Below, one piece after another: positions 170 to 24,945 of a DNA stretch of 64,000 nucleotides. The notes beneath the pieces are model-generated. The model was not told the DNA's origin. It searched no databases and saw only the letters and a program-made list of their open reading frames with translations. Both the position numbers and the translations under genes were made by a program. This stretch comes from Streptomyces formicae (lineage in GTDB: Bacteria > Actinomycetota > Actinomycetes > Streptomycetales > Streptomycetaceae). Within the stretch, counting starts at the first letter, position 1. Each line of letters opens with the position of its first letter. Location of the stretch: assembly GCF_002556545.1 (NCBI RefSeq), contig NZ_CP022685.1:5992001-6056000 (forward strand), given 5' to 3'.

Positions 170-2941
170 TCAGCCAGTACTAGGAGAGGCGTGTTTCACC
201 GTGAGCTCCCGCAGCGATGGCGCCTTGTCGTCCGCCGCGCGGACCGTGATCCGTACGTAGCGGGCGGCCGGGGGGTTCGCGGTGGGTGTGTGCCAGGTGT
301 GTCCGTTCGTCGAGGTCCGCACGCGCTGACTCGCGGGCCGCACCGCCCACTTGGGGGTGATCGCGCCGAGCCGGGTCGGGCGGCCCAGGTCGACGGTCAG
401 GGAGGCGTTCCGTGCGGTCGGGGACCAGGTGGTGACCGGGTTGCCGTCCACCGCGGCCGCCGCGTACAGGCCCGGGTCCTCGGAGGTCGCCTTCGCCGGG
501 CGGCAGCGCGCCGCGTTGGTGGTGGGGGTCAGGTCAGGGCGTCGGGTCGTGAGCGTGGCGGGGGAGTGCGGGGTGGCGGTGAGTGTGCCGTCGCGCGGTG
601 AGGTGATGCGGAAGACGTCGCCCGAAGTCAGCCTGACCGTCGTCCTCTTGGGGCCGATCGTGATGTCGAACGTCCGCCCGCGCCACCGCATCCCGCGCAG
701 CGTCACGCCCTTCGCGAGCTGCGGCGGCAGCGTCGGGTCCAGGCGCAGCGCGTCGCCCTCGTGCAGCCTGAGCCCCGTGAGGCCGTGCGTGAACACTTGC
801 AGGAAGCCGCCCTTGCCGGTGAGGAAGTCCTGCGCGGGCGATCCGGCGAGCGCGTCGCCCGCGCCCGCCTTCGTGCCGCGCGACTCCGAGAAGAGCGCGA
901 ACGGGCCGCGCATGAAGGGGCGTACGGACCGCTGGAGGTACGTGTACGAGGCGCAGCCGGGCTCGCCGATCGCGGCCGCGTCGATCGCGTGCACGGAGTC
1001 CGTCATCGCGGGCCCTTCCGGGTCGGTGCGGGCGCTGTAGTGGTCGAGGGTGGCGGCGGCCGCGCCCTTCGGCATGGGCCAGTCCAGCGGGTAGGTCAGC
1101 AGGACGGTGTCGGCCTGCTTGATGGTCGACCCGTCGTAACCGGCGTACTGGAGATAGATCTTGCGCTTCTTGTCGTACGGGATGCGGATCCGGTCGGCGG
1201 TCCGGGTCCAGGACGCCGGTGCCCTCTCGCCGAGGACGCGGGCCGCGCGAGCCGCCGCGCGCAGGGAGGTCGCGGCGACGGCGTTGGTGTAGACGCCGTC
1301 GGTGACGCCGTTGCTGTACTCGTCGGGGCCCGCCACGTTCTGGATCGAGTAACTCCCGTCCGTGTTACGGGTGATGCGGGACATCCAGTACTCGGCGATG
1401 CCCTTCAGGAGCGGTCCGCCGCGCTCGCGCAGCCAGGCGCGGTCGCCCGTCGCCAGGTAGTACTGCCAGGCGGCGAGCGCGATGTCGCCCTGGAGGTGGT
1501 TCTGTTGGACGCAGTGCGGCGGGTACCAGCTCTGGCACTCCGACCACAGGGCGCCCCGGCTCGCGCTGGTCCACGGGTAGAAGAGGCCCTTGACGGACGT
1601 CTTGCGGGCGTTCTCGCGGGCCGCGTCGCGGGTGAAGTGCCGGTAGGCGAGGACGGGTTCGGCCAGTTCGGGGCGGGTCGCGAGCAGCGCCGGGAGCATC
1701 CAGGTCTCGGCGTCCCAGAAGATCATGCCCGCGTAGTTGTCGCTGGTCAGACCGGCGGGCGCGATGCTGTCGCGGGAGCCCGCGCGGGTGGACGACAGTA
1801 GTCCGTACTGCGCCGCACGCGCCCAGAGTTGGAGGTCGGGGCGCCCGGGGAGTTCGATGTCGGAGGTCCACAGGCGCCGCCAGGCCGCCGCGTGCGAGGC
1901 GAACAGCGCGTCCCAGCCGAGGGCGGCGGCCCGGCGTGACGCGCGCTGGGCGGCGGCGCGGGGTGAGTGGGGCGTGTGTGTGGCGCGGGTGGTGTCGACG
2001 CCCACGTACTTGGTGACGTCGTACGTCCCGCCGTCCCGGACGCGGAATTCAGCGGCCTGACTGTTGCTCAACTCCCTTGCTCGGCCTGCCGCATGTGTCA
2101 CCCCCGGCGCCTTGAGGGTCGACGCGACGGCGCCGTCCGCGCGGGTGCCGTCGGTGCGGAACGCCACGTCCATCGTCTTCTTGCCGCGCGGCCCGCCGCC
2201 CGTCTGCGCGATCCGTCGGGCGCCGCGCCCGTCGATGCGGTCGGTGACGGTGGCCGTGCCGGTCCAGTGCGGGGTCAGGCGCAGCCGTACGGCGCCGGTG
2301 TGCGCCCGGTCGCGGGCGGTCAGGACGTCGTACGTCAGGTCGGTGCGGCGCCCGTCGGTCGTTGTCCAGGTCAGCGAGGTGCGTACGAAGCCGCAGCGCA
2401 GGTTCATGGTCTGCCGGTAGCCGGAGACGTGGCTGTGCGGGCCGTAGGTCTCGCCGCCGACGGTGAGGTCGAGGGCGGTCCAGTGGGGGAGCGCGGCGAT
2501 GGCCTCGCGGTGGGCGGTGTTCTCGGGCCCGCGCGCGTAGAGCCCCGCCGCGAAGGCCCCGTCGTAGCGCGGGGTGTAGAGGGGCCAGCCGGTCTTCTCC
2601 CCCTTGTCGCCCGGGTCGGGCGGGCTGTAGCCGGTACCGGCGGGCGGCACGCGTACGCCCAGGTAGCCGTTGCCGACGTACGGGTTGTAGGCACCTTTCG
2701 CGGGGCTGCGGCGGGTGGCGGTCGGGGTCCAGGTCGGATCGCCCGGGGGGTCGCAGCGTGAATCGGGGCGAGGGGTGGGGGTGGAGTTGGGGTTGGGGTT
2801 GGGGTTGGCTGCGGGGGTGCCCGCGGAGGCCGTGGTGGTGCCCGTGGTGGTCAGGGTCAGGGCGGCGGCGGTCAGGAGGGCGGCGGCGAGGCGTGGCTTC
2901 ACGGACTGACGATGCTCCGTGGACCGGCCCGAGCGGGGCAT
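170..2941 (-). CDS. Secreted GH65-family glycoside hydrolase with C-terminal F5/8C (discoidin-like) domain
   Basis: 923 residues. A Sec-type signal peptide (hydrophobic 20-40, ending near ASAG) is followed by a Pro/Asn-rich linker at 45-60. The GH65 catalytic barrel carries FWDAETW at 408-414 and GPDEY at 538-542, whose Glu is the proposed general acid of GH65. The preceding YNPYVGNGYLG and the YRHFTRDAARENA segment resemble the acid trehalase/ATHL1 branch, which hydrolyses alpha-glucosides, more than intracellular phosphorylases. From about 800 to 915 there is an F5/8 type C-like carbohydrate-binding domain (AAVDGNPVTTWSPT, then YVRITVRA). It probably attacks an alpha-glucosyl substrate outside the cell; the substrate is unknown. 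A GTG at 2902 would give a shorter, tidier signal peptide and is a credible alternative start. Confidence 0.85.
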   Translation of the reverse strand: MPRSGRSTEHRQSVKPRLAAALLTAAALTLTTTGTTTASAGTPAANPNPNPNSTPTPRPDSRCDPPGDPTWTPTATRRSPAKGAYNPYVGNGYLGVRVPPAGTGYSPPDPGDKGEKTGWPLYTPRYDGAFAAGLYARGPENTAHREAIAALPHWTALDLTVGGETYGPHSHVSGYRQTMNLRCGFVRTSLTWTTTDGRRTDLTYDVLTARDRAHTGAVRLRLTPHWTGTATVTDRIDGRGARRIAQTGGGPRGKKTMDVAFRTDGTRADGAVASTLKAPGVTHAAGRARELSNSQAAEFRVRDGGTYDVTKYVGVDTTRATHTPHSPRAAAQRASRRAAALGWDALFASHAAAWRRLWTSDIELPGRPDLQLWARAAQYGLLSSTRAGSRDSIAPAGLTSDNYAGMIFWDAETWMLPALLATRPELAEPVLAYRHFTRDAARENARKTSVKGLFYPWTSASRGALWSECQSWYPPHCVQQNHLQGDIALAAWQYYLATGDRAWLRERGGPLLKGIAEYWMSRITRNTDGSYSIQNVAGPDEYSNGVTDGVYTNAVAATSLRAAARAARVLGERAPASWTRTADRIRIPYDKKRKIYLQYAGYDGSTIKQADTVLLTYPLDWPMPKGAAAATLDHYSARTDPEGPAMTDSVHAIDAAAIGEPGCASYTYLQRSVRPFMRGPFALFSESRGTKAGAGDALAGSPAQDFLTGKGGFLQVFTHGLTGLRLHEGDALRLDPTLPPQLAKGVTLRGMRWRGRTFDITIGPKRTTVRLTSGDVFRITSPRDGTLTATPHSPATLTTRRPDLTPTTNAARCRPAKATSEDPGLYAAAAVDGNPVTTWSPTARNASLTVDLGRPTRLGAITPKWAVRPASQRVRTSTNGHTWHTPTANPPAARYVRITVRAADDKAPSLRELTVKHASPSTG

Positions 2942-14195: not shown

Positions 14196-16295
14196 TCAGA
14201 ACCTGCCGCCTCCGCCCCGGCGCCCCCGCGTCCCGCCGCCACCGAAGCTCCCGGGTCCGCCGCCACCGAAACCGCCCCCTCCGTAGTGACCGCCTCCGCC
14301 GCCCGCGCCGCCGCCCATGCCCCGGCCCATGCCTCCGAGGAGTTCGCCGAGGATGATCCCGCCGAGCACCGCGCCACCCGTACCGCCGCCCCGGCCACCG
14401 CCACCGCCGAGCCCTCCGTAGGGGTTGCCGTAGCCCCGTACGTCCCGCTCGGCGAGCTGCTGCGCCTGCCGGGCCAGCGCGTCCGCCTGCTGGGCGTCGG
14501 CGAGCGCGGCCGTGGCGTCGTCGTCCTGGGCCGCCTCCGCCTGCCCGAGGTGGCGCTGTGCCTCGGCGAGACGGGTCCGCGCCTCGCTGCCGACGGCGCC
14601 GCGGTGCGTGGTCACGAAGTCCGCCGCGACGCCGACGGCGCTGCGCGCGGTGAGCAGGGCCTGGGCGAGCAGGGACCGGGCGCGGCGGTCGGTGACCTCG
14701 CGCTCGCGGGCGCCCGCGAGCGCCGCGTCGAGTGCGGCGTCGGCCTCCTCGACGCGGCGCAGGGCCTCGATGGGGTCGTAGGGGCCCGCGGACGTCCGCC
14801 CGCGCACCTCGGCGACCACAGACTCCGCGCGGGCGACACGGCCCCGCAGATCGGCCGTGGAGACGCCTTCCGCGGTGCCCTCCAGGAGGCCGCGCGCGTC
14901 GGCGAGGTCGGCCTCGGCGTCGGTGAGCGCGGCGGTCAGCTTCTCAGCGGCCCGCGCGAGCTCGTCGGCGAGGCGGTCGACGGCGTCCACGAAGGTGCCC
15001 GCCTGGTCGACGGCGCCCTCGGCGGCCCGCAGATGGACGGCGGCGTTCCCGCTCTCGCCCGCGTCCAGGGACTGCCGGGCCTGGTTGAGGTGCGTGGTGG
15101 CGAAGACCAGGCGGTCCTTGGCCTGCTCGACATGGCCGACGACGGACGCGGACGCGCTCGGCGCGTACGTCGCACGGAGGGCGTCGAGGGTCTCGCCTGC
15201 CGCGTTGGTACGCCCCGCCACCTGCCGGAACACGGTTTCCGCGTGCTCCAGGGCCGCCGGGGCGTTCTTCTCCAGGGCGCGCAGCTGGTCGAAGCCCGCC
15301 GTCTCGGCGTCGAGGCGGCGGCCCGCCTCCGTGCAGCGCGCGACGATCTCGTCCAGCATGCGGCGCCTGGTCGGGTCGTCCTCGGGGAAGGCGTCGTCGA
15401 GCTCCTGCCGCAGCCGGAACGCGGCCGTCAGTTCGGCCTGTGCGTACGTCAGCGCGGCGCTGAAGGGCTCGGCCGCCTCCTCGCCGTACTGGGCGGTGGC
15501 GAAGCCGAGCTCCTCGGTGCTGGTGCGGATCGCGTCGTCGGTCTCCACGAGCAGGCGGCTGGCCTGCTGGTCGAGCTCGGGCAGCGGGGTGAGGTCCTTG
15601 CCCGTGCCGCGGCCCCGACCGCCGCCGGGCGTCGTGCGCGTGGTGACCCGCTTTCTGCGCCGCTTGTACGCGACCGTCGCCGCGATCCCGGCCGCGCCCA
15701 CAGCGACCACGGGGAGCACCAGGTCACCGGCGGTGGAGCCGTCGTCGTCGGCCCCGGGGTCGGCCGAGCCCGGCGTGATCGCGGGGGTCGGCACCGGCTG
15801 CCCGGCGAGGACCGCGCGGTAGCCGTTCGCGGCGCCGACGGCGGCTCCCGCCCAGTCGTTCTCGCGCAGGGCGGGCCTGATCGCGGTGGTGGCGACGTCC
15901 CGGAGCTGTGCGTCGGTGAGCCGCGAAGCGTCGTCCACGGAGTAGGCGAACTGCCGGTCGCGGGTGGCGACGGCGAGCAGCACGTCGTCGATGCCGAGGC
16001 CGTTGCGCCGGGCGGTGGCATCCGCCCAGCTCTGCGCGGAGCGGCCGGAGAAATCGCGCACGTAGGCGACGAAGAGCTGCACGCCGCGGTCGTCGTAGAG
16101 TCGGTCGAGTGCCTGCTCGGCGGCGTCCTTCCGGTCCCCGAGCGCGCCCGCCTTGTCGGTGATCTGGCCGGTGCGGGAGAGCGTGACCGGATCGTCGGCG
16201 AACGCGCGCGGGGGACACAGCAACGGGAACCAGGCGAGCAGCACGGCCACCGCGGCCGCTGCCGCCCGCCCGGCCAGGTGCGAGGGCGGCGTCAC
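14196..16295 (-). CDS. TPM-domain membrane protein with coiled coil and Gly-rich tail
   Basis: 699 residues. Sec signal (1-34, ending near AFADD), an extracytoplasmic TPM/Psb32-like domain (about 40-165, with DRGVQLFVAYVRDFSG and DDVLLAVATRDRQFAYSV), a membrane helix (LVLPVVAVGAAGIAATVAY, about 190-210) followed by KRRRKR, then a long cytoplasmic Ala/Glu-rich coiled coil (about 240-620) and a C-terminal glycine-rich tail (GGGG and GGMGRGMGG blocks). The TPM domain is found in phosphatase-like and photosystem-repair proteins. Placed upstream of pspA, it may pass envelope signals to the PspA coat; this is inference. Confidence 0.87.
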   Translation of the reverse strand: MTPPSHLAGRAAAAAVAVLLAWFPLLCPPRAFADDPVTLSRTGQITDKAGALGDRKDAAEQALDRLYDDRGVQLFVAYVRDFSGRSAQSWADATARRNGLGIDDVLLAVATRDRQFAYSVDDASRLTDAQLRDVATTAIRPALRENDWAGAAVGAANGYRAVLAGQPVPTPAITPGSADPGADDDGSTAGDLVLPVVAVGAAGIAATVAYKRRRKRVTTRTTPGGGRGRGTGKDLTPLPELDQQASRLLVETDDAIRTSTEELGFATAQYGEEAAEPFSAALTYAQAELTAAFRLRQELDDAFPEDDPTRRRMLDEIVARCTEAGRRLDAETAGFDQLRALEKNAPAALEHAETVFRQVAGRTNAAGETLDALRATYAPSASASVVGHVEQAKDRLVFATTHLNQARQSLDAGESGNAAVHLRAAEGAVDQAGTFVDAVDRLADELARAAEKLTAALTDAEADLADARGLLEGTAEGVSTADLRGRVARAESVVAEVRGRTSAGPYDPIEALRRVEEADAALDAALAGAREREVTDRRARSLLAQALLTARSAVGVAADFVTTHRGAVGSEARTRLAEAQRHLGQAEAAQDDDATAALADAQQADALARQAQQLAERDVRGYGNPYGGLGGGGGRGGGTGGAVLGGIILGELLGGMGRGMGGGAGGGGGHYGGGGFGGGGPGSFGGGGTRGRRGGGGRF

Positions 16296-16394: not shown

Positions 16395-17819
16395 TCAGAT
16401 GCTGAAGCGCTCCTTGGCGAGCAGCGGCCGCACGCGCGTGGCGAAGCCGCCGGTGCGGAACGGCGCCTGCAGCAGTCCGGGCCGCAGTTCCTGGGCGAGG
16501 GCCGCAGCGATCATGCCCTGGTCCAGGGCGAGCGCGAAGTCGCTGACCCGTCCGCTGCGCACGTCCACGGAATCGCGGAATCCGTACGTCTCGTCGTACG
16601 CCCCGAAGTCGCGCTCCAGCGCCTTCAGGTTGTCGATGGCCGCCCCGCGCGCGTGGGGGAGCGCCAGGAAGGAGGCGTGCGGCGTGACGACGCCGAGGGA
16701 GTGGTAGCCGTCGACCTGCATGCCGATCGCGTCGACGCCGTACTCGCGGTACCCGCCGTCGGGGATGTTCGCGGGGGAGAAGCCCCAGTAGCCGTACCTC
16801 TCCTCGATCAGACCGTGTTCGATCTGGGCGCGCACATAGCGGTCGTGCGTGGTGCCCCACGCGCGCGGGGACCACTCGGGCTCGGGCACGAAGAGCGGCA
16901 CCATGAGCGCCTCGAACATCGAGCCGCCCCAGGTGGGCACGAGCTTGCGCCCCCGGTAGGTGTAGTGGCCCTGCCAGACGCGGACGCCGTCGATGGTGAC
17001 GTAGCCGCCGCCGGGCCGCTGTTCCTGCTCGTGCTCGGGGAGCATGGTGCGCAGCAGGTGCCAGTAGTGGTCGGCGGGGATCGAGCCGTCCGCGATGCCG
17101 AGGTAACTGGCCATGCGCGGCTCGGTGTTGAGGGCGCCGTAGTGATGGGCGGTCGGCTCGCCGGTGTCGGTCCAGAACCCGCCGCGCAGCTGTCCGGGGC
17201 CCGCGACCGGGTCCGCCGGGTCGTACGGCGTGTAGAAGTACGACCAGTCCGCGCCCGCCAGCAGCTTCGCGACGCGGGGGCGCAGGGCGGGGTCGGCGTG
17301 GGCGGCGATGCGCAGACCGGTGACCAGCCAGGCGTTGTCGACGGACGACAGGAACGGGCGGACCGGGTCGCCGGTGCCCGGCCAGCTGGTGAGGACCGAA
17401 CCGTCGTGCGCGTCGTACCAGTTGAGCCAGAAGCCGTGGTGCCGCTCCAGCTTCTCGACGGCCGCGACGGTGCGGGCGAGGCGGCGGTGCATCGCGCCGT
17501 CGCCGATGACGCCGAGGCCGCGGGCGGCGACGGTGGTCCAGAGCCCGCAGCCGATGTTGGTCGGCGAGGTCTGGCGCGAGGGGACCGGGGTGCCGGGGCC
17601 GCTGACGTCGATCTTGTCGGCGGCGAGACCGAGGTCGGTCGTCATTGCCTCGATCGAGTGATGCGTGGCACGGAACCACTTCCGCAGCAGCGGTGTATCA
17701 GAGGTATGAGGACGAAACGAAGGAACCCGCGGGGCCGCTGCGGCGGCCGGTGCGCCACCGAGGGCCAGGGCAGCGGCCCCGGCTCCCGCCCCGGCGGCGA
17801 GGAATGTACGACGATCCAT
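16395..17819 (-). CDS. Tat-exported Glycoamylase-family (GH144-like) glucanase
   Basis: 474 residues. The N-terminus MDRRTFLAAGAGAGAAALAL is a twin-arginine signal ending near AAAAP. The body shows the Pfam Glycoamylase (PF10091) signature in order: TSPTNIGCGLWTT, HHGFWLNWYDAHDG, SSVDNAWLVTG, WGGSMFEALM, YGYWGFSPAN, GYREYGVDAIG and the late ALDQGMIAAAL. Characterised members include GH144 endo-beta-1,2-glucanases, and the fold also forms part of cyclic beta-1,2-glucan synthase. GGGAG precedes the ATG. It lies 132 bp downstream of a GH1 beta-glucosidase and a sugar ABC importer, so it probably cuts an external glucan into imported oligosaccharides. The beta-1,2 linkage is inferred from the family, not seen. 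Confidence 0.85.
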   Translation of the reverse strand: MDRRTFLAAGAGAGAAALALGGAPAAAAAPRVPSFRPHTSDTPLLRKWFRATHHSIEAMTTDLGLAADKIDVSGPGTPVPSRQTSPTNIGCGLWTTVAARGLGVIGDGAMHRRLARTVAAVEKLERHHGFWLNWYDAHDGSVLTSWPGTGDPVRPFLSSVDNAWLVTGLRIAAHADPALRPRVAKLLAGADWSYFYTPYDPADPVAGPGQLRGGFWTDTGEPTAHHYGALNTEPRMASYLGIADGSIPADHYWHLLRTMLPEHEQEQRPGGGYVTIDGVRVWQGHYTYRGRKLVPTWGGSMFEALMVPLFVPEPEWSPRAWGTTHDRYVRAQIEHGLIEERYGYWGFSPANIPDGGYREYGVDAIGMQVDGYHSLGVVTPHASFLALPHARGAAIDNLKALERDFGAYDETYGFRDSVDVRSGRVSDFALALDQGMIAAALAQELRPGLLQAPFRTGGFATRVRPLLAKERFSI

Positions 17820-17951
17820 GAAGGTCCAACTCCCAGTGACAGGTGTGCCGGTGACAGGTATGGAAGGGGAGGTTCGTGGCGTGCGGCGGTGATACGGGGA
17901 CCGACCGCTGTCAGGTGCGGTCGGCCCCCGAGCTGGGGAGGGTGCGCTGAA

Positions 17952-19157
17952 CTAGTCGGCCAGGCGCGGGAGTTCCCGCGTGCGGCCGAGCCCGCCCAGC
18001 CAGTGCGCGGACGGCTTCGGCGTGCGGGCGAACGTCTCGCGGTCCCAGGCGATCAGTCCGAACGCGGGCGCGTAGGAGCCCCACTCGTAGTTGTCCAGGG
18101 CGCTCCAGGCCAGGTAGCCGCCGATGTTGAGGCCGTCCTCCAGGCAGGCGGCGACCTCGTCGAGCGCGCCCTTGTAGTAGTCGACGCGGCGCGCGTCGTC
18201 GTCCGTGGCGATGCCGTTCTCGGTGACGATCAGGGGCACTCCGGCATCGGCGAGCACGGCGGCGGTGTGGCGCAGCGCGTGCCCGACGGCGGCCGGGTAG
18301 TACTCCCACTGCGTGAGGGTCCGCTCGGCGTCGTCCGGCGCCGGTATCGGACCCTCGGCGCCGATCCGGGTGCGCGTGTAGGACTGCACGCCGATCCAGT
18401 CGTCGCCGCGCGCGGCCTCGATGAAGACGTCCTCGCGCGGGTGGCGGTACGCGGCGGTGACCTCCTCCGCGCCGGGCAGCGCCTGGTAGACCTGGTTGGC
18501 GACGGTCCAGCCCACGCGGATGGCCGGGTCGATCGCCCTGACCTCCTTCACGGCGGCGTGGTGCGCGGCGATCACCGCGTGCGTGGTCTCGTCGTCCGGG
18601 GTCGGCAGCCCCGCGGGCGGGAAGCCGATGTCGCCGCGCTTGGCCTGCCCGGCCATGACGGCGATCATGTTGGGCTCGTTGATGGTGCACACGTACGGCA
18701 CACCGTCGGCGATGACGGGCGCGCAGGCGGCGACGTACCGCGCGAACAGTTCGGCGGAGTCCTCGGCCGTCCAGCCGCCCCGCGCCTCGAACCACTGCGG
18801 CACGGTGAAGTGGTGCAGGGTGACCATCGGCCGCAGACCGCGCTCGATCGCGCCCTCGACCATCCGCCGGTAGTGCGCGAGCTCCGCCCGGGAGAACCGG
18901 CCCTCGGCGGGTTCGATGCGGGCCCACTCGATGCTGAACCGGTAGTCGGTGAAGCCGAGTTCGGCGAGCAGGTCCATGTCCTTGGGCCAGCGGTGGTAGC
19001 TGTCGCAGGCGTCCAGGCTGGGTTCCTGGATGTGGGTGCCGGTGCTGTGCTCCTTCACCCACCAGTCGCTGTTGGTGTTATTGCCCTCGATCTGGTGGGC
19101 GGCGGTGGAGGCGCCCCACAGAAAGCCTTCGGGGAACGGGATCGGGGTGTGCGTCAT
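17952..19157 (-). CDS. GH1 family beta-glucosidase, intracellular
   Basis: 401 residues, no signal peptide. GH1 landmarks are all present: FPEGFLWGASTAAHQIEG at the start, TLHHFTVPQWF, the acid/base in TINEPN (about residue 165), the nucleophile in IVTENGIA (about 315-322) and the YLAWSALDNYEWG loop near 350. It should hydrolyse the imported beta-linked gluco-oligosaccharide in the cytoplasm to glucose. It follows the second permease gene by 63 bp and precedes the exported glucanase, as bglC follows cebEFG in cellobiose loci. The linkage specificity is not readable from sequence. Confidence 0.9.
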   Translation of the reverse strand: MTHTPIPFPEGFLWGASTAAHQIEGNNTNSDWWVKEHSTGTHIQEPSLDACDSYHRWPKDMDLLAELGFTDYRFSIEWARIEPAEGRFSRAELAHYRRMVEGAIERGLRPMVTLHHFTVPQWFEARGGWTAEDSAELFARYVAACAPVIADGVPYVCTINEPNMIAVMAGQAKRGDIGFPPAGLPTPDDETTHAVIAAHHAAVKEVRAIDPAIRVGWTVANQVYQALPGAEEVTAAYRHPREDVFIEAARGDDWIGVQSYTRTRIGAEGPIPAPDDAERTLTQWEYYPAAVGHALRHTAAVLADAGVPLIVTENGIATDDDARRVDYYKGALDEVAACLEDGLNIGGYLAWSALDNYEWGSYAPAFGLIAWDRETFARTPKPSAHWLGGLGRTRELPRLAD

Positions 19158-19220
19158 CGCGAGATGTCTTTCTCTTGCAAGGTGGGGGAGTGCCGGGCGG
19201 GGCGAGCGGCGCCCGTGGGG

Positions 19221-20057
19221 CTACTTCATGCCCGCGGTGGCGATGCCCTGGGTGAAGTACCGCTGCAGCACGGCGAAGACGATCAGGACCGGCAGCACGA
19301 TCAGGAACGCCCCGGCCATCAGCATCCCGTTGGATCCGGACGACTTGTTGGGGTCGGTCGCGAAGGTGGCGAGGGCGACCGGGAGGGTGTACTTGTCGGG
19401 GTCGTTGGTCGCGATCAGGGGCCAGACGAAGTTGTTCCAGGACCCGAGGAACGTGAAGATCGAGAGCGTCGCGAGGGCGGGCTTCACCAGCGGCATCACG
19501 ATCCGCCAGAAGATGTACCACTCGCCGGCGCCGTCCATCCGGGCCGCTTCGAGGAGCTCGTCGGGGATCGACTGCATGAACTGCCGCATGAGGAAGACCC
19601 CGAAGGCACCGGCCGCGAAGGGCAGCACCAAGGCGGCATAGGAGTCGATCAGTTGCAACTTGCTCATCAGCACGAACAAGGGCAGCAGCATCAGGTTGCC
19701 GGGCACCATCAGGGCGCCGAGCACCAGGGCGAAGATCTTGTTCCGGCCGATGAAGTTCAGCTTGGCCAGTGCATATCCGAGCATCGAGCAGAAGACGAGA
19801 TTGGCGACGGTGACGAGCACCGCGACAATCACCGAATTCATGAAGTAGAGCGGCAGATCGAGCTTGTCGAGCAGCCGGTGGAAGCTGTCCAGGGTCCACT
19901 CGGACGGAATCCAGACGGGCGGACTCGCGGTCAGTTCCTCGGCCGACTTGAAGGCCGAGAGGGCCATCCAGAGGAACGGCGCGGACATGACGAGAAGTCC
20001 GGCGGAAAGGAGCACATAGACGAGCGGCCGCTTCATCACCTGGGACTTGGCGCTCAT
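19221..20057 (-). CDS. Carbohydrate ABC transporter permease, MalG type
   Basis: 278 residues with six predicted membrane helices. The EAA loop EAARMDGAGEWYIFWRIVMP lies at about 185-205 and contacts the ATPase. Its ATG overlaps the stop of the preceding permease gene (ATGA), indicating coupled translation. No ATPase is encoded nearby, which is normal for Streptomyces sugar importers served by the shared ATPase MsiK. Confidence 0.92.
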   Translation of the reverse strand: MSAKSQVMKRPLVYVLLSAGLLVMSAPFLWMALSAFKSAEELTASPPVWIPSEWTLDSFHRLLDKLDLPLYFMNSVIVAVLVTVANLVFCSMLGYALAKLNFIGRNKIFALVLGALMVPGNLMLLPLFVLMSKLQLIDSYAALVLPFAAGAFGVFLMRQFMQSIPDELLEAARMDGAGEWYIFWRIVMPLVKPALATLSIFTFLGSWNNFVWPLIATNDPDKYTLPVALATFATDPNKSSGSNGMLMAGAFLIVLPVLIVFAVLQRYFTQGIATAGMK

Positions 20058-21085
20058 TTGGTGTTGTCCTTCAGCAGTCGGAGCTGGAGCACCGTGATGC
20101 CCATGATCACCACGAAGAGGACGTACGCCATGGCGCTGGCATAGCCCATGTGGAAGAAGTTGAAGCCCTCGCGGTACATGTTCAGCGACACGGTGAGCGT
20201 GGAGTCCGAAGGACCGCCCTGCGTCATGACGAACGGCTCCTCGAAGACATTGAGATAGCCGATCGTGGTGATCACCGTGGCGTAGAGCAGCGTGGGCCGC
20301 AGCAGGGGAACGGTGATCCGGCGGAGTTCCTGCCAGGCGCCGGCCCCGTCCAGCTTGGCGGCCTCGCGGACCTCGGTCGGAATGGCCTGCAGTCCGGCGA
20401 TGAAGAGCACCATCACCGTGCCGAGGTTGCGCCAGACGGCCATCGCGATGAGCGAGGGCATGGCGAGCGTCTCGCTGCCGAGGAAGTCCGGTGCGGTGAG
20501 CCCGAGTTCGGCGCAGAGTCCGGCGATGAGCCCGTCGCTCGGGTCGAGCACGAACCGCCAGACGACGGCCACCGCGACGATGGAGGTCACGACAGGTGCG
20601 TAGAACCCGACCCGGAAGAAGGTCCGGGCGCGATCGATCCCGTTGTTGAGGAGGACGGCCACGAGGAGCCCGAGGAAGAGGGTGAGCGGAACGCCGATCA
20701 CCACGAAGTACCCGGTGTTGAAGAGGGCCGTGAGGAACTTCTCGTCGCCGAAGAGCTTGGTGTAGTTCTCGAAGCCGATGAAGTTCGCTTCCCAGGGCCG
20801 GGTCACGTTGCGCAGCCCGAAGTCGGTGAAGCTCATGGCCAGCGTGGCGACGATGGGGAACGCCATGAAGACGGTGAACAGGACCAGGAAGGGGGTGGAG
20901 AAGAGCCACCCGGCCCAGTTCTGAACGCCCAGGCCGCGCTTGCGTCCGCGTCCGTGCTCGCGTCGTCGGCCGTCGGGGCCCTCGCGGCCGTCCTCGGAGC
21001 CGGTGGCCGGGGACGGAGCAGTCCCCGGGCCGCCGCCCCGCGCTCCGGCCACCGGTGCGGCGGCCTTTCCGCTAGTGGTGCTCAT
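20054..21085 (-). CDS. Carbohydrate ABC transporter permease, MalF type
   Basis: 343 residues. A charged, Gly/Arg-rich cytoplasmic N-terminus of about 55 residues precedes six helices. The EAA motif EAAKLDGAGAWQELRRITVP is at about 250-270. It overlaps the next permease gene by four bases and starts 9 bp after the binding-protein gene, so all three are co-transcribed. Confidence 0.92.
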   Translation of the reverse strand: MSTTSGKAAAPVAGARGGGPGTAPSPATGSEDGREGPDGRRREHGRGRKRGLGVQNWAGWLFSTPFLVLFTVFMAFPIVATLAMSFTDFGLRNVTRPWEANFIGFENYTKLFGDEKFLTALFNTGYFVVIGVPLTLFLGLLVAVLLNNGIDRARTFFRVGFYAPVVTSIVAVAVVWRFVLDPSDGLIAGLCAELGLTAPDFLGSETLAMPSLIAMAVWRNLGTVMVLFIAGLQAIPTEVREAAKLDGAGAWQELRRITVPLLRPTLLYATVITTIGYLNVFEEPFVMTQGGPSDSTLTVSLNMYREGFNFFHMGYASAMAYVLFVVIMGITVLQLRLLKDNTK

Positions 21086-21094
21086 GATCGCTGC

Positions 21095-22339
21095 CTACTT
21101 CACGAGGTTCTCGATCTCGGACTGCGCCTTCTCGGCGGCGTCCTCGGCGGAGGCCTTGCCCTGGGTCACCGACTCGATGGCCGCGTCGACCTTGGAGGTC
21201 ACCTCGGTCCACTTGGCCAGCGCGGGCGAGGTCTTGGCGGTCTCCATCTGCTTCTTGAAGACCTGCAGATCGGGGTTGTCGGCGAGTTCGCCGCTCTCCC
21301 ACGCCTTGGTGTTGGCGGGCAGGTCGCTGGTGCGCTCGAACCAGTCGGCCTGGCCCTTGGTGTCGGTCAGGTGCTGGATGAACTCCTTGGCGGCGGCCTT
21401 GTGCGGGCTGTCCTTGGAGATCACCAGGCTCGATCCACCGGCCATCGACGTGGAGGTCTTGTCGGCGGGCACGGGAGCGACGCCCCACTTGCCCTTGAGG
21501 CCGGGGTACTGGTCCTTGATCAGCGTGCTGATCCAGGGTCCTGAGAAGAACATCGGGACGTCGCCGGTGTTGAAGTCCTTCAGCGGGTCGTAGCCGGGCT
21601 GCGAGCTCTTCATGCTGAGCCCGTCCTTCATGTACGCGCCGTACTCCTTGAGGGCCTTCACCGTGGCGGGGCTGTCGAAGGCGGCCTTGCCGTCCCCGTC
21701 GACGATCTCGCCGCCCGCCGAGTACAGGAAGGGGTAGAAGGACTGCACGGTGTCGAGGCCGCGGGGCTGGAGGTAGATGCCCCACTTGCCGTCGCCCTTG
21801 TCCCGCAGGGCCGATGCCATGTCCCGCAGCCCCTTCCAGTCGGCCGGGGGCTTGCCGACGCCCGCCTTCTTCGCGAGGTCGGTGCGGTAGTAGAGCACGC
21901 GGGTGTCCACGTACCAGGGCACGCCGTACGAGGTGCCGTCCACCTCGCCCTGCTGCCAGCCCGCGGGGAAGAAGTCCTTCTTGTCGAAGGTCTTGGTGTC
22001 CACCGGCTCCAGGACGCCGAGTTCGGCGAACTCGCCGAGGTAGCTGCCGCCCATCTGGGCCACGTCGGGCAGCTTGCCCGCGGCGGCCGCGGAGACCAGC
22101 TTCTGGTGGGCGACGTCCCAGCCGACGGGGGTGACCTTGACCGTGATGTTCGGGTTCGCCTTCTCGTACTTCTCGGCGACCTCCGCGAGCTTCTCGCCCT
22201 CGGCACCCATGGCCCAGACGGTGAGCGTCTGCTTCTTGTCGGCGGCGACTTCGTCACCGGCGGAGCTGCCGCACGCGGTGACGGCGAACGCCGTCGCGAG
22301 TGCGATGGCGACCGAAGCGGTTCTGGCGGCGCGGTGCAT
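21095..22339 (-). CDS. Sugar-binding lipoprotein of the ABC importer (family 1)
   Basis: 414 residues from the ATG at 22339, which has AAGGAGGAG about 10 bases upstream; the longer upstream frame lacks support. Lipobox FAVTACGSS with Cys at about 24. The mature part is a MalE/CebE-like periplasmic-type receptor (WAMGAEGEKLAEVAEKYEKAN; MFFSGPWISTLI; TSMAGGSSLVIS). It captures an oligosaccharide at the cell surface and hands it to the two permeases. The upstream 352-base gap holds a LacI-type operator. Neighbouring GH1 and Glycoamylase enzymes point to a beta-gluco-oligosaccharide ligand. Confidence 0.92.
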   Translation of the reverse strand: MHRAARTASVAIALATAFAVTACGSSAGDEVAADKKQTLTVWAMGAEGEKLAEVAEKYEKANPNITVKVTPVGWDVAHQKLVSAAAAGKLPDVAQMGGSYLGEFAELGVLEPVDTKTFDKKDFFPAGWQQGEVDGTSYGVPWYVDTRVLYYRTDLAKKAGVGKPPADWKGLRDMASALRDKGDGKWGIYLQPRGLDTVQSFYPFLYSAGGEIVDGDGKAAFDSPATVKALKEYGAYMKDGLSMKSSQPGYDPLKDFNTGDVPMFFSGPWISTLIKDQYPGLKGKWGVAPVPADKTSTSMAGGSSLVISKDSPHKAAAKEFIQHLTDTKGQADWFERTSDLPANTKAWESGELADNPDLQVFKKQMETAKTSPALAKWTEVTSKVDAAIESVTQGKASAEDAAEKAQSEIENLVK

Positions 22340-22390
22340 GGACGGCTCCTCCTTGAGCTTCCCTGACGTCCCGGCGTCTTGCGGTGCCGG

Positions 22391-22419
22391 ATGTATGCGC
22401 TGTCTGTAAGCGCATACAT
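22391..22419. promoter_or_regulatory. LacI-type operator upstream of the sugar importer
   Basis: Perfect 10-bp inverted repeat ATGTATGCGC at 22391-22400 and GCGCATACAT at 22410-22419. Inside it, TGTAAGCGCATACA (22405-22418) is a one-mismatch LacI/GalR palindrome. On the minus strand it lies just downstream of TTGCGG-N18-CAGAGT, a plausible promoter for the binding-protein gene, where a repressor would block transcription. Confidence 0.7.
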
Positions 22420-22610
22420 CACTCTGTGGCAGTGTCCCTGGTGACCGCAAGAGGGTCTTGGTCACACTCCCGTAACGGGGGTGACATGGGAGGCGTGGGC
22501 GAAGTGCGTGGCTTGAGCAAGCTATGCGGGATGTTTGCATCCTGAAAGGAAATGTGGCGGTTGCCTCATGCTCCGCAGTCCAGTTGGCGCCGGGTGGCCT
22601 GAGCCTCGCC

Positions 22611-22676
22611 GGTCCGGGCCACGCCGAACCTTGGTCCGGGCCGCATCGGTCCCTGGTCCGGGTCGCGCCGGGCCCT
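22611..22676. repeat. Three direct 22-bp repeats upstream of the esterase
   Basis: GGTCCGGG begins at 22611, 22633 and 22655, exactly 22 bp apart, and the bases between are partly conserved (for example CGCCG and a final CCT). Two helical turns per unit would put all copies on one face of the DNA, as expected of an activator-binding array. Confidence 0.6.
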
Positions 22677-22679
22677 CGT

Positions 22680-22685
22680 TAGGGT
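22680..22685 (+). promoter_or_regulatory. -10 element TAGGGT of a leaderless esterase mRNA
   Basis: TAGGGT is six bases before the ATG at 22692; no ribosome site is visible. Confidence 0.5.
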
Positions 22686-22691
22686 CGCCGC

Positions 22692-23702
22692 ATGCCCGCG
22701 TTCTCGCACGACTTCCCCTTCGACCCGGCGTACGGCCACACCCTCGACGACCTCCTCGCGGTGCCCGCGCCGCCCGCACCGGCCGACTTCGCCGCCTTCT
22801 GGCGGGCCCGCCACGAGGCCGCCCGCGCGGTTCCGACCGCGCCCGTCGTCGGCCCCGTGGAAGAGGTGCGCGACGGGGTCCGTGTGCACGGGGTGACGTA
22901 CACGTCGGTCGGTGGAGTGCGCGTCGGGGGCTGGCTCGTGCTGCCCGACGACGGTCCCGTGGAGCACGGCCCCGTGGAGCACGGCTTCGTCGTCGGGCAC
23001 GGCTACGGCGGACGCGATGAACCGGGCCCGGACGTCCCGCTTCCGCTGCCCCGTTCGGCCGCGCTGCTGCCCTGTGTCCGGGGCATGGAGACCCGGGGCC
23101 GTCGGCCCGGCATCCCGAGCCGGGCCGACGAGCACGTGCTGCACGGCATCGGGTCCCGCGACACCTACGTGCTCGCGGACTGCGTGGCCGACCTCTGGTG
23201 TGCGGCGTCAGCGCTGCTCGAACTGGTTCCCGGGCTGACCGGGGGCGACGGGGGAGAGAGGCAGCCTTCCCTGGGCTACCTCGGGGAGAGCTTCGGCGGT
23301 GGCCTGGGCGCGCTCGCCCTGCCCTGGGACGACCGTTTCGCCGCCGCGCAGCTGACCGTGCCCACCTTCGGCAACCACCCGCTCCGGCTCACGCTCCCGT
23401 GCGTGGGCAGTGGGGAGGCGGTCCGCGCGTACCACCGGGAGCACCCCGAAGTCACCGGTGTGCTGCGCTACTTCGACGCGGCGACGGCGGCGACGTACCT
23501 CCGCGTACCGACCCTGACGGCGCCCGCGCTCTTCGATCCCTCGGTCCCGCCGCCGGGCCAGTTCGCGGTGCACAACGCGATCGCGGGCCCGCGCGAACTC
23601 CATGTCCTGGAGGCGGGCCACTTCGCGTACGAAGGCACGGAGCGGGAGACGAAGGCGCTGCGGGACGCCCGCGAGAGGTTCTTCGCCGAGCACCTCGACT
23701 GA
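22692..23702 (+). CDS. Acetyl xylan esterase / cephalosporin-C deacetylase family (CE7-like) esterase
   Basis: 336 residues, no signal peptide. The first 60 residues (FPFDPAYGHTLDDLLAV, DFAAFWRARHEAA) are the typical CE7 N-terminal segment. The nucleophile elbow is GESFGGG at about 197, the acid probably in ALFDPSVPP and the histidine in LEAGHF. The family's usual RGQ motif reads RGME here and the elbow has E-F instead of the common S-Q, so the substrate may differ from xylan acetate. A 15-bp tandem duplication gives GPVEHGPVEHG at about 95. It is divergent from the importer operon and convergent with the LacI gene, suggesting deacetylation of an imported sugar. Confidence 0.82.
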   Translation: MPAFSHDFPFDPAYGHTLDDLLAVPAPPAPADFAAFWRARHEAARAVPTAPVVGPVEEVRDGVRVHGVTYTSVGGVRVGGWLVLPDDGPVEHGPVEHGFVVGHGYGGRDEPGPDVPLPLPRSAALLPCVRGMETRGRRPGIPSRADEHVLHGIGSRDTYVLADCVADLWCAASALLELVPGLTGGDGGERQPSLGYLGESFGGGLGALALPWDDRFAAAQLTVPTFGNHPLRLTLPCVGSGEAVRAYHREHPEVTGVLRYFDAATAATYLRVPTLTAPALFDPSVPPPGQFAVHNAIAGPRELHVLEAGHFAYEGTERETKALRDARERFFAEHLD

Positions 23703-23750
23703 GGCCGGTCCGCACCGCCCCCCCCGCAGGAGAAGAGGCGCCCTATCGCC

Positions 23751-24878
23751 TTATTCGCGCCCGCACCCGCAGCTGGCCCGTCGCACCACGCTCACCGGCA
23801 GCATCAGATCGACGGGCTCCCGTTCGCGCTCCGCGCCGAGTCGGCGTACGAGCAGTTCGACCGCCTCCTCGCCGAGCTGGCGCATCGGCTGGCGCACGGT
23901 CGTCAGCGCGGGCCGCACCAGGCGGCTGAGCGGGATCCCGTCGAATCCGGTGACGGCGATGTCGTCCGGCACCCGCACCCCGCGCCGCTCCAGCGCGTGC
24001 AGCGCGCCGATGGCCATCTGGTCGTTGGCGAAGAGCATGGCATCGGGCGGCGGTCCGGCCGCGTCGGCCCGGTCGAGGAGTTCGTCGGCGGCCCGCGCCC
24101 CCTCCGCCTGGGTCATCATCTCGGCGCGCAGATCGGGCTCTTCGCGCACCGGAAGCCCGGCCGCCCGGCACGCCTCCCGATAGCCGAGGAACCGCGCCTG
24201 CGCGTCGGGCGAGCGCTCCTCACCGCCGACGAAGGCCAGCCGCCGCAGCCCGTGGTCCTCGACCAGGTGCCGGGTCAGCTCGCGCTGCCCGTCGGCGTTG
24301 GCGACCTCGATGTGGTCGAGGTGGTCGAGCTCGTCGTTCTCGCGGGGCCCGGCGAGCATCACGACGGGCAGCCGCCGCGAGATCACGTCGAGGTCCTCGG
24401 TCGGCACGGTCCTGGACAGCACGGCGAAGCCGTCGACCCGCCCCGCGACCTTGGCGACCAGGCTCTCCGGGCCGCCCTTGAGGGAGGCGGCGATCAGCAG
24501 CGCGTACCCGTGCCGACGGGCGGCCCGCTCCATGCCGCGGATGATCTGGTCGGAGTAGAGCATGAAGGCGTGGTCGTCGTCGGCGTCGGCCGCGGCGGCC
24601 TCGGTCTCGGTGTCCGGGTCCGAGAGGTCGGGGAAGCAGAGCCCGAGCACGCCGGTGGAACGGCTGGCGAGCCCGCGGGCGTTCCCGCTGGGCACGTAGC
24701 CGAGCTCGCGGGCCGCGGCGAGCACCCGCTCGCGGGTCTTCTCACGGACCGAGTCCGGGGTGCGGTAGACGCGCGACACCGTCGCGATGGAGACGCCCGA
24801 CCGCTCGGCGACGTCGTACACCGTGGGAGTTGTGCTCACCCGATCGCCTGCTCGTTTCTCGCTGCTGATGTGCGTCAC
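23751..24878 (-). CDS. LacI-family transcriptional repressor of the sugar locus
   Basis: 375 residues. The helix-turn-helix TVYDVAERSGVSIATVSRVY (about 19-38) and hinge RELGYVPSGNARGLASR are standard LacI. The periplasmic-binding-like core follows, with the effector-domain ending FANDQMAIGAL and VTGFDGIPLSR. An Asp/Ala-rich insertion (ETEAAAADADDDH) sits at about 93-105. A GTG at 24839 with AGCAGG upstream, giving MSTTPTVYDV, is an equally credible start. It probably binds the TGWAAGCGCATWCA sites at 22405 and 24932, the second being upstream of its own gene. The CebR site TGGGAGCGCTCCCA is not present. Confidence 0.9.
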   Translation of the reverse strand: MTHISSEKRAGDRVSTTPTVYDVAERSGVSIATVSRVYRTPDSVREKTRERVLAAARELGYVPSGNARGLASRSTGVLGLCFPDLSDPDTETEAAAADADDDHAFMLYSDQIIRGMERAARRHGYALLIAASLKGGPESLVAKVAGRVDGFAVLSRTVPTEDLDVISRRLPVVMLAGPRENDELDHLDHIEVANADGQRELTRHLVEDHGLRRLAFVGGEERSPDAQARFLGYREACRAAGLPVREEPDLRAEMMTQAEGARAADELLDRADAAGPPPDAMLFANDQMAIGALHALERRGVRVPDDIAVTGFDGIPLSRLVRPALTTVRQPMRQLGEEAVELLVRRLGAEREREPVDLMLPVSVVRRASCGCGRE

Positions 24879-24931: not shown

Positions 24932-24945
24932 TGAAAGCGCATTCA
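24932..24945. promoter_or_regulatory. Second LacI-type operator, between lacI and the SUKH gene
   Basis: TGAAAGCGCATTCA matches the importer-operator core in 12 of 14 positions. It lies about 55 bp before the lacI-family start and overlaps the -35 position of the divergent SUKH gene promoter, whose -10 is TACGGT at 24957-24962. Confidence 0.65.

Follow-up and report, generated by a model that had tools for sequence, protein, structure and literature searches.

A probable beta-1,2-glucan utilisation operon with its own LacI-family repressor in Streptomyces formicae

Gene content of the locus

The window, which is the whole 64,000-nucleotide stretch of DNA that was analysed, comes from a 9.6-Mb, single-contig genome whose nearest relatives are Streptomyces. 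It carries a minus-strand operon in the order lipoprotein binding protein, permease, permease, GH1 enzyme, and exported Glycoamylase-domain enzyme. An AXE1-domain esterase gene is divergently oriented to the operon, and on its far side is a LacI gene. All seven genes had been named in a preliminary description of this DNA, and each was found on the strand given there. The features are as follows.

16395..17819, minus strand: predicted GH193-type beta-1,2-glucanase, exported (Tat-like signal), Glycoamylase domain
17952..19157, minus strand: predicted GH1 sophoro-oligosaccharide beta-glucosidase, cytoplasmic; match to SGR_2426 (8KAP), with 4 subsite residues identical
19221..20057, minus strand: second ABC permease; its start overlaps the 3' end of the first permease gene
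20054..21085, minus strand: first ABC permease (PF00528, 51.6 bits)
21095..22339, minus strand: lipoprotein sugar-binding protein, Lin1841-like (match to 5ysb Lin1841)
22391..22419, minus strand: 11-bp perfect inverted repeat with a 7-bp spacer, containing the operator
22405..22418, minus strand: predicted LacI operator TGTATGCGCTTACA, upstream of the binding-protein gene
22692..23702, plus strand: AXE1-domain esterase, divergent
23751..24878, minus strand: LacI-family repressor (PF00356, 63.3 bits; PF13377, 138.1 bits), likely start near 24839
24932..24945, minus strand: predicted operator TGAATGCGCTTTCA, upstream of the LacI gene; exact in the window and in 60 of the 61 relatives with upstream DNA

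Two of the gene starts in the preliminary description have to be moved, while the genes themselves stand. Comparison with the starts of homologues puts the most likely start of the LacI protein near 24839. For the binding protein, the most likely start is 22339 and not 22540: from 22339 it reads MHRAAR... with a lipoprotein-type signal, and AGGAGGAG lies immediately upstream. The operator at 22405-22418 is thus placed upstream of the gene, though within the mechanical open reading frame.

Between positions 16000 and 25200, no Rfam families were found. A simple sigma-70 scan for promoters was negative, and terminator-like sites are no commoner than in shuffled sequences. The gene directly downstream of the operon (14196-16295, minus strand) encodes an apparently unrelated TPM-domain protein. 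A GH65-family protein with an F5/8 type C domain is encoded some 13 kb away (170-2941, minus strand), and no link between it and the operon was seen.

The variation of the locus was followed in 69 of 80 fetched relatives, namely those whose DNA extends 8.5 kb or more upstream of the GH193 (Glycoamylase) gene. The binding protein and both permeases are present in 67 of these loci and the LacI gene, within the fetched stretch, in 62, so that the gene order is not due to chance. Orthologues of the second permease are 76 to 92% identical where the cluster is kept and 73% identical in the most distant locus.

Predicted pathway and its substrate

These genes very probably form an operon that serves the utilisation of beta-1,2-glucan (sophoro-oligosaccharides) and has a LacI repressor of its own. 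Outside the cell, the Tat-exported GH193 enzyme would cleave beta-1,2-glucan to short sophoro-oligosaccharides, which the Lin1841-like lipoprotein and the two permeases would bring in, powered by a presumably MsiK-like ATPase encoded elsewhere; the cytoplasmic GH1 enzyme would then free glucose from them. LacI is predicted to bind TGTATGCGCTTACA and, upstream of its own gene, TGAATGCGCTTTCA, and an imported sophoro-oligosaccharide would release it from these operators. The specificity of the GH1 enzyme has been shown in S. griseus; the homology, active-site residues, synteny, and operator pattern described here come from sequence.

According to PMC12369401, S. griseus SGR_2422-2427 has the same arrangement of an esterase gene, ABC transporter genes, GH1, and GH193. 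The binding protein, GH193, LacI, and GH1 proteins of this S. griseus locus (L055) are 75 to 86% identical to those in the window. The preliminary description had proposed that an exported glucanase, an importer, and a beta-glucosidase act together on beta-1,2-glucan, and this proposal gains support from the GH1 homologue of SGR_2426, the GH193 orthologue, and the Lin1841-like binding protein. Its statement that this substrate is little described in Streptomyces has been overtaken, since a 2025 paper describes the cluster of S. griseus (PMC12369401); the pathway as such is therefore not new. In Listeria innocua, lin1838-lin1843 has in common with the window a LacI gene, a sophoro-oligosaccharide-binding ABC transporter, and a beta-glucosidase, but it includes a GH94 phosphorylase and a GH3 glucosidase, and no exported GH193 is named in the available parts of PMC3960220 and PMC12369401.

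The esterase contains an AXE1 domain (PF05448) with a score of 63.9 bits, above the Pfam cut-off, and shows no signal peptide by eye. CE7 enzymes are characterised by the motifs RGQ, GxSQG, and HE, which are not intact here (RGM, GESFGG, and GHF). The basis of the earlier label "CE7-like" is the Pfam domain and not the motifs, and the S. griseus counterpart is said to be in no CE family (PMC12369401). The esterase gene was found in 38 of the 69 loci, in 36 of them divergent and no more than 700 bases from the binding-protein match, and no such gene was found in the other 31. Thus, the esterase is not required everywhere: it is common but dispensable. These data bear on the possibility that the actual substrate is a beta-1,2-glucan with acyl groups or other decoration, or a sophoroside, from which the esterase would strip acyl groups. 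Succinyl and acetyl groups have been noted on such glucans (PMC11842490), modified sophoro-oligosaccharides have been speculated on (PMC12369401), and the gene adjoins the operon in those 36 loci. However, its absence from the fetched DNA of the other 31, the missing signal peptide, and the altered motifs make such a substrate rather unlikely, although it is the least unlikely of the alternatives to plain beta-1,2-glucan.

The exported enzyme consists of 474 residues. Read by eye, its N terminus (MDRRTFLAA..., then a hydrophobic segment) is consistent with a Tat signal, and a Pfam scan shows no extra domain. Its identity to the copy in the S. griseus locus L055, where the gene order is the same, is ~77%, and the published text files that copy, SGR_2427, under GH193 (PMC12369401). 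By this orthology, the enzyme belongs with GH193 as judged from its sequence. It had previously been likened to GH144 but is not closer to GH144 than to the other families of the clan. Its best matches are GH189 domains, yet the GH189 nucleophile is missing, and membership in GH144 was not borne out.

Glu233 aligns with E1356 of TiCGSTg, and Asp161 aligns with D149 of EeSGL1, given an assumed one-residue chain offset. The general acid Glu233, the candidate base Asp161, a Phe, and a Tyr do not vary among the aligned relatives (14 of 14 in one alignment, 45 of 45 in the other); candidates for both the acid and the base looked for in GH193 (the residues of the beta-1,2-glucanase clan) are present. 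The product of 16395-17819 is best regarded as a putative glucanase. Structure comparison places a GH189 domain as the closest fold, followed by glucanases of the same clan. A model built from close relatives alone was poor (pLDDT 61.4) and was set aside. The GH189-type top matches in both sequence and structure would suit a transglycosylase or cyclase that remodels beta-1,2-glucan and does not degrade it. In GH189, however, the catalytic nucleophile is E1442 of TiCGSTg (PMC11842490), whose position is taken here by Pro349, invariant in both alignments; SkSGL of Sanguibacter keddieii, a GH193 member, is an anomer-inverting hydrolase (PMC12102758); and the operon includes an importer and a glucosidase. 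A remodelling enzyme is thus highly improbable.

SkSGL is likened to the enzyme in the window on two grounds: the S. griseus orthologue has been placed in the same family in print, and the types of catalytic residues are shared. SkSGL differs by a C-terminal Ig-like domain (PMC12102758). In a motif scan, none of 120 proteins listed by way of a Micrococcales relative has D160 and E246 as SkSGL does, though a spacing of 85 to 87 between these two residues (86 in SkSGL) is common.

Among solved structures, the binding protein best matches 5ysb, Lin1841 (5.4e-65), with the sugar-binding protein 3uor nearly tied (1.7e-64). Lin1841 is the sophoro-oligosaccharide binder of L. innocua (PMC3960220 and PMC12369401), suggesting that the importer might be specific for the same sugars. 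A scan of the cluster genes revealed no ATPase. The source genome encodes two proteins that carry a MalK-type OB domain, one of which may be MsiK.

The GH1 protein is a close homologue of S. griseus SGR_2426 (8KAP; 785.8 bits), and the alignment shows that all four +1-subsite residues of the latter, Met171, Asn228, Gln229, and Trp291, are identical in it. SGR_2426 is specific for sophoro-oligosaccharides, with kinetics published in 2025 (PMC12369401). The same source says that Asn228 is not conserved in other clusters, so that this residue is the weakest marker of specificity.

A LacI repressor, a binding protein, two permeases, a cytoplasmic GH1 enzyme, and an ATPase encoded elsewhere are also features of the cellobiose system cebR-cebEFG-bglC (PMC4890002). 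The window might therefore be taken for a second locus for cellobiose or cello-oligosaccharides, and its gene types and order match those of that system except for the exported enzyme. The operator is different, however. As the preliminary description had noted, the window contains no CebR site TGGGAGCGCTCCCA; the four matches with 3 mismatches are at the shuffle level (at least 4 in 91 of 100 shuffles). The single exact TGGGAGCGCTCCCA in the source genome lies 2.5 Mb away, at a CebR-like locus (L155) whose proteins are 25 to 35% identical to those described here. As the activity of the S. griseus GH1 homologue on cellobiose is also nearly nil (PMC12369401), a second cellobiose locus is extremely unlikely. 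Beta-1,2-glucan loci could nevertheless be misread as cellobiose loci.

Predicted operator and LacI regulator

Plain word counts over the DNA that precedes the binding-protein gene in 72 loci (the window and 71 of the 80 relatives fetched) brought out the operator, whereas a search of the same region for perfect palindromes gave nothing common to the loci. TGTATGCGCTTACA precedes the binding-protein gene in all 72, exactly in 69 and with one mismatch, a final G, in three (L071, L076, and L079). Column identity is about 1.00 within the operator, compared to 0.62 to 0.72 in its flanks. The inverted repeat at 22391-22419 is perfect in 58 of the 72 loci and lacks its full second arm in 14; it is therefore not essential, though it could be a double operator. 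LacI genes are present in 65 relatives, of which 60 have an exact site upstream of this gene (52 with TGAATGCGCTTTCA and 8 with TGAATGCGCTTACA), four end at the locus edge (L004, L010, L038, and L060), and one (L078) lacks the site.

With at most one mismatch, the pattern TGWATGCGCTTWCA has just two sites in the 9.6-Mb genome, both at the locus: one precedes the binding-protein gene and the other lacI. The reversed pattern, used as a control, has one site. Exact matches to the pattern are found in 41 of 199 Streptomyces genomes, and those to the reversed control in a single one (G058). The GH193 query matches 38 of these genomes, 35 of them, including the source genome, over nearly the full length. 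The remaining three matches are weak (G045, E = 6e-4) or fragments (G061 and G132), and these genomes have no operator. The operator is found in all 35 genomes with a near-full-length GH193, as against 6 of the 164 others (Fisher's test, 4e-33, a value overstated by the relatedness of the genomes). Coordinates compared by hand place it within 7 kb of the GH193 gene in 33 of the 35 genomes and on a separate contig in 2.

Four of the six operator-only genomes (L149, L150, L151, and L153) combine the operator with LacI and transporter genes and have no GH193 match. The other two, G162 and G188 (L152 and L154), have nothing related in 19 kb, and their sites are probably there by chance. The operator thus provides a testable marker that locates the cluster even without GH193, and the 35 of 199 genomes with a near-full-length GH193 suggest that the use of beta-1,2-glucan is widespread in Streptomyces.

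These sequence comparisons strongly support the operator as a conserved element. We infer that the LacI protein of this locus binds it, because the two co-occur and a site precedes the LacI gene itself. The DNA-reading helix is IATVSRVYR in this protein, versus GRGTVSRVIN in the genome's CebR-like protein. The inducer would be the imported sophoro-oligosaccharide. The S. griseus locus L055 also has the LacI gene and the operator; the available text of PMC12369401 names neither a LacI regulator nor an operator, although its Figure 6a may show a regulator. In Listeria, the neighbouring LacI gene has already been suggested as a possible cluster regulator (PMC3960220). In the part of PMC12102758 available, LacI occurs as a bacterial family name in a reference and not as a mention of a regulator. 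A literature search, which may have missed names printed with a comma, found no description of the operator or of the regulator assignment.

Two lone GH193 genes differ in this respect. The one in S. albidoflavus (L070:9753) has an exact operator upstream and no cluster LacI or transporter gene in 21 kb; the one in L073 has no operator.

GH1 and GH39 at the same position

GH1 is found in 52 of the 69 loci and a GH39 protein in 13, never both; two loci have the transporter but neither enzyme, and two have none of these genes. The GH39 gene occupies the slot of GH1, between permease and GH193, in L007 (7941-9788), L008, L019, L020, L032, L067, L071, L074, L075, L077, L078, L080, and L081. Its product, a cytoplasmic protein of ~615 residues, shows no signal peptide by eye. 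E295 and E391, which we take to be the positions of the GH39 catalytic pair, are invariant in the aligned sequences (8 of the 13).

On a GH193 tree of 81 rows, the GH39 label changes five times, with at least four of the changes forced by well-supported branches, which points to repeated exchange or loss, as expected if the two enzymes share one job. Standing in the place of GH1 and never beside it, this protein is suggested to be a candidate sophorose-acting GH39. No description of such an activity or of the GH39 exchange was found in the literature search; in the available part of PMC12369401, GH39 occurs once, in a reference title on a GH39 beta-glucosidase. The exchange thus predicts a GH39 activity for which no description was found and, together with the operator and the regulator assignment, is what appears new relative to the literature found.

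The evidence leaves evenly balanced a further proposal, that LacI serves specifically to sense beta-1,2-glucan, by way of TGWATGCGCTTWCA, and that these proteins are the first sophoro-oligosaccharide-specific branch of GH39. Further exact operators lie ~75 bases upstream of GH3 genes (L071:16642, L076:17920, and L079:15589) and, in L077 (14442), 67 bases before the start of a gene with a GH35 domain. If LacI is such a sensor, these genes would enlarge the regulon. Another copy of the operator, by a short-chain dehydrogenase gene in L075, fits poorly and may be due to chance.
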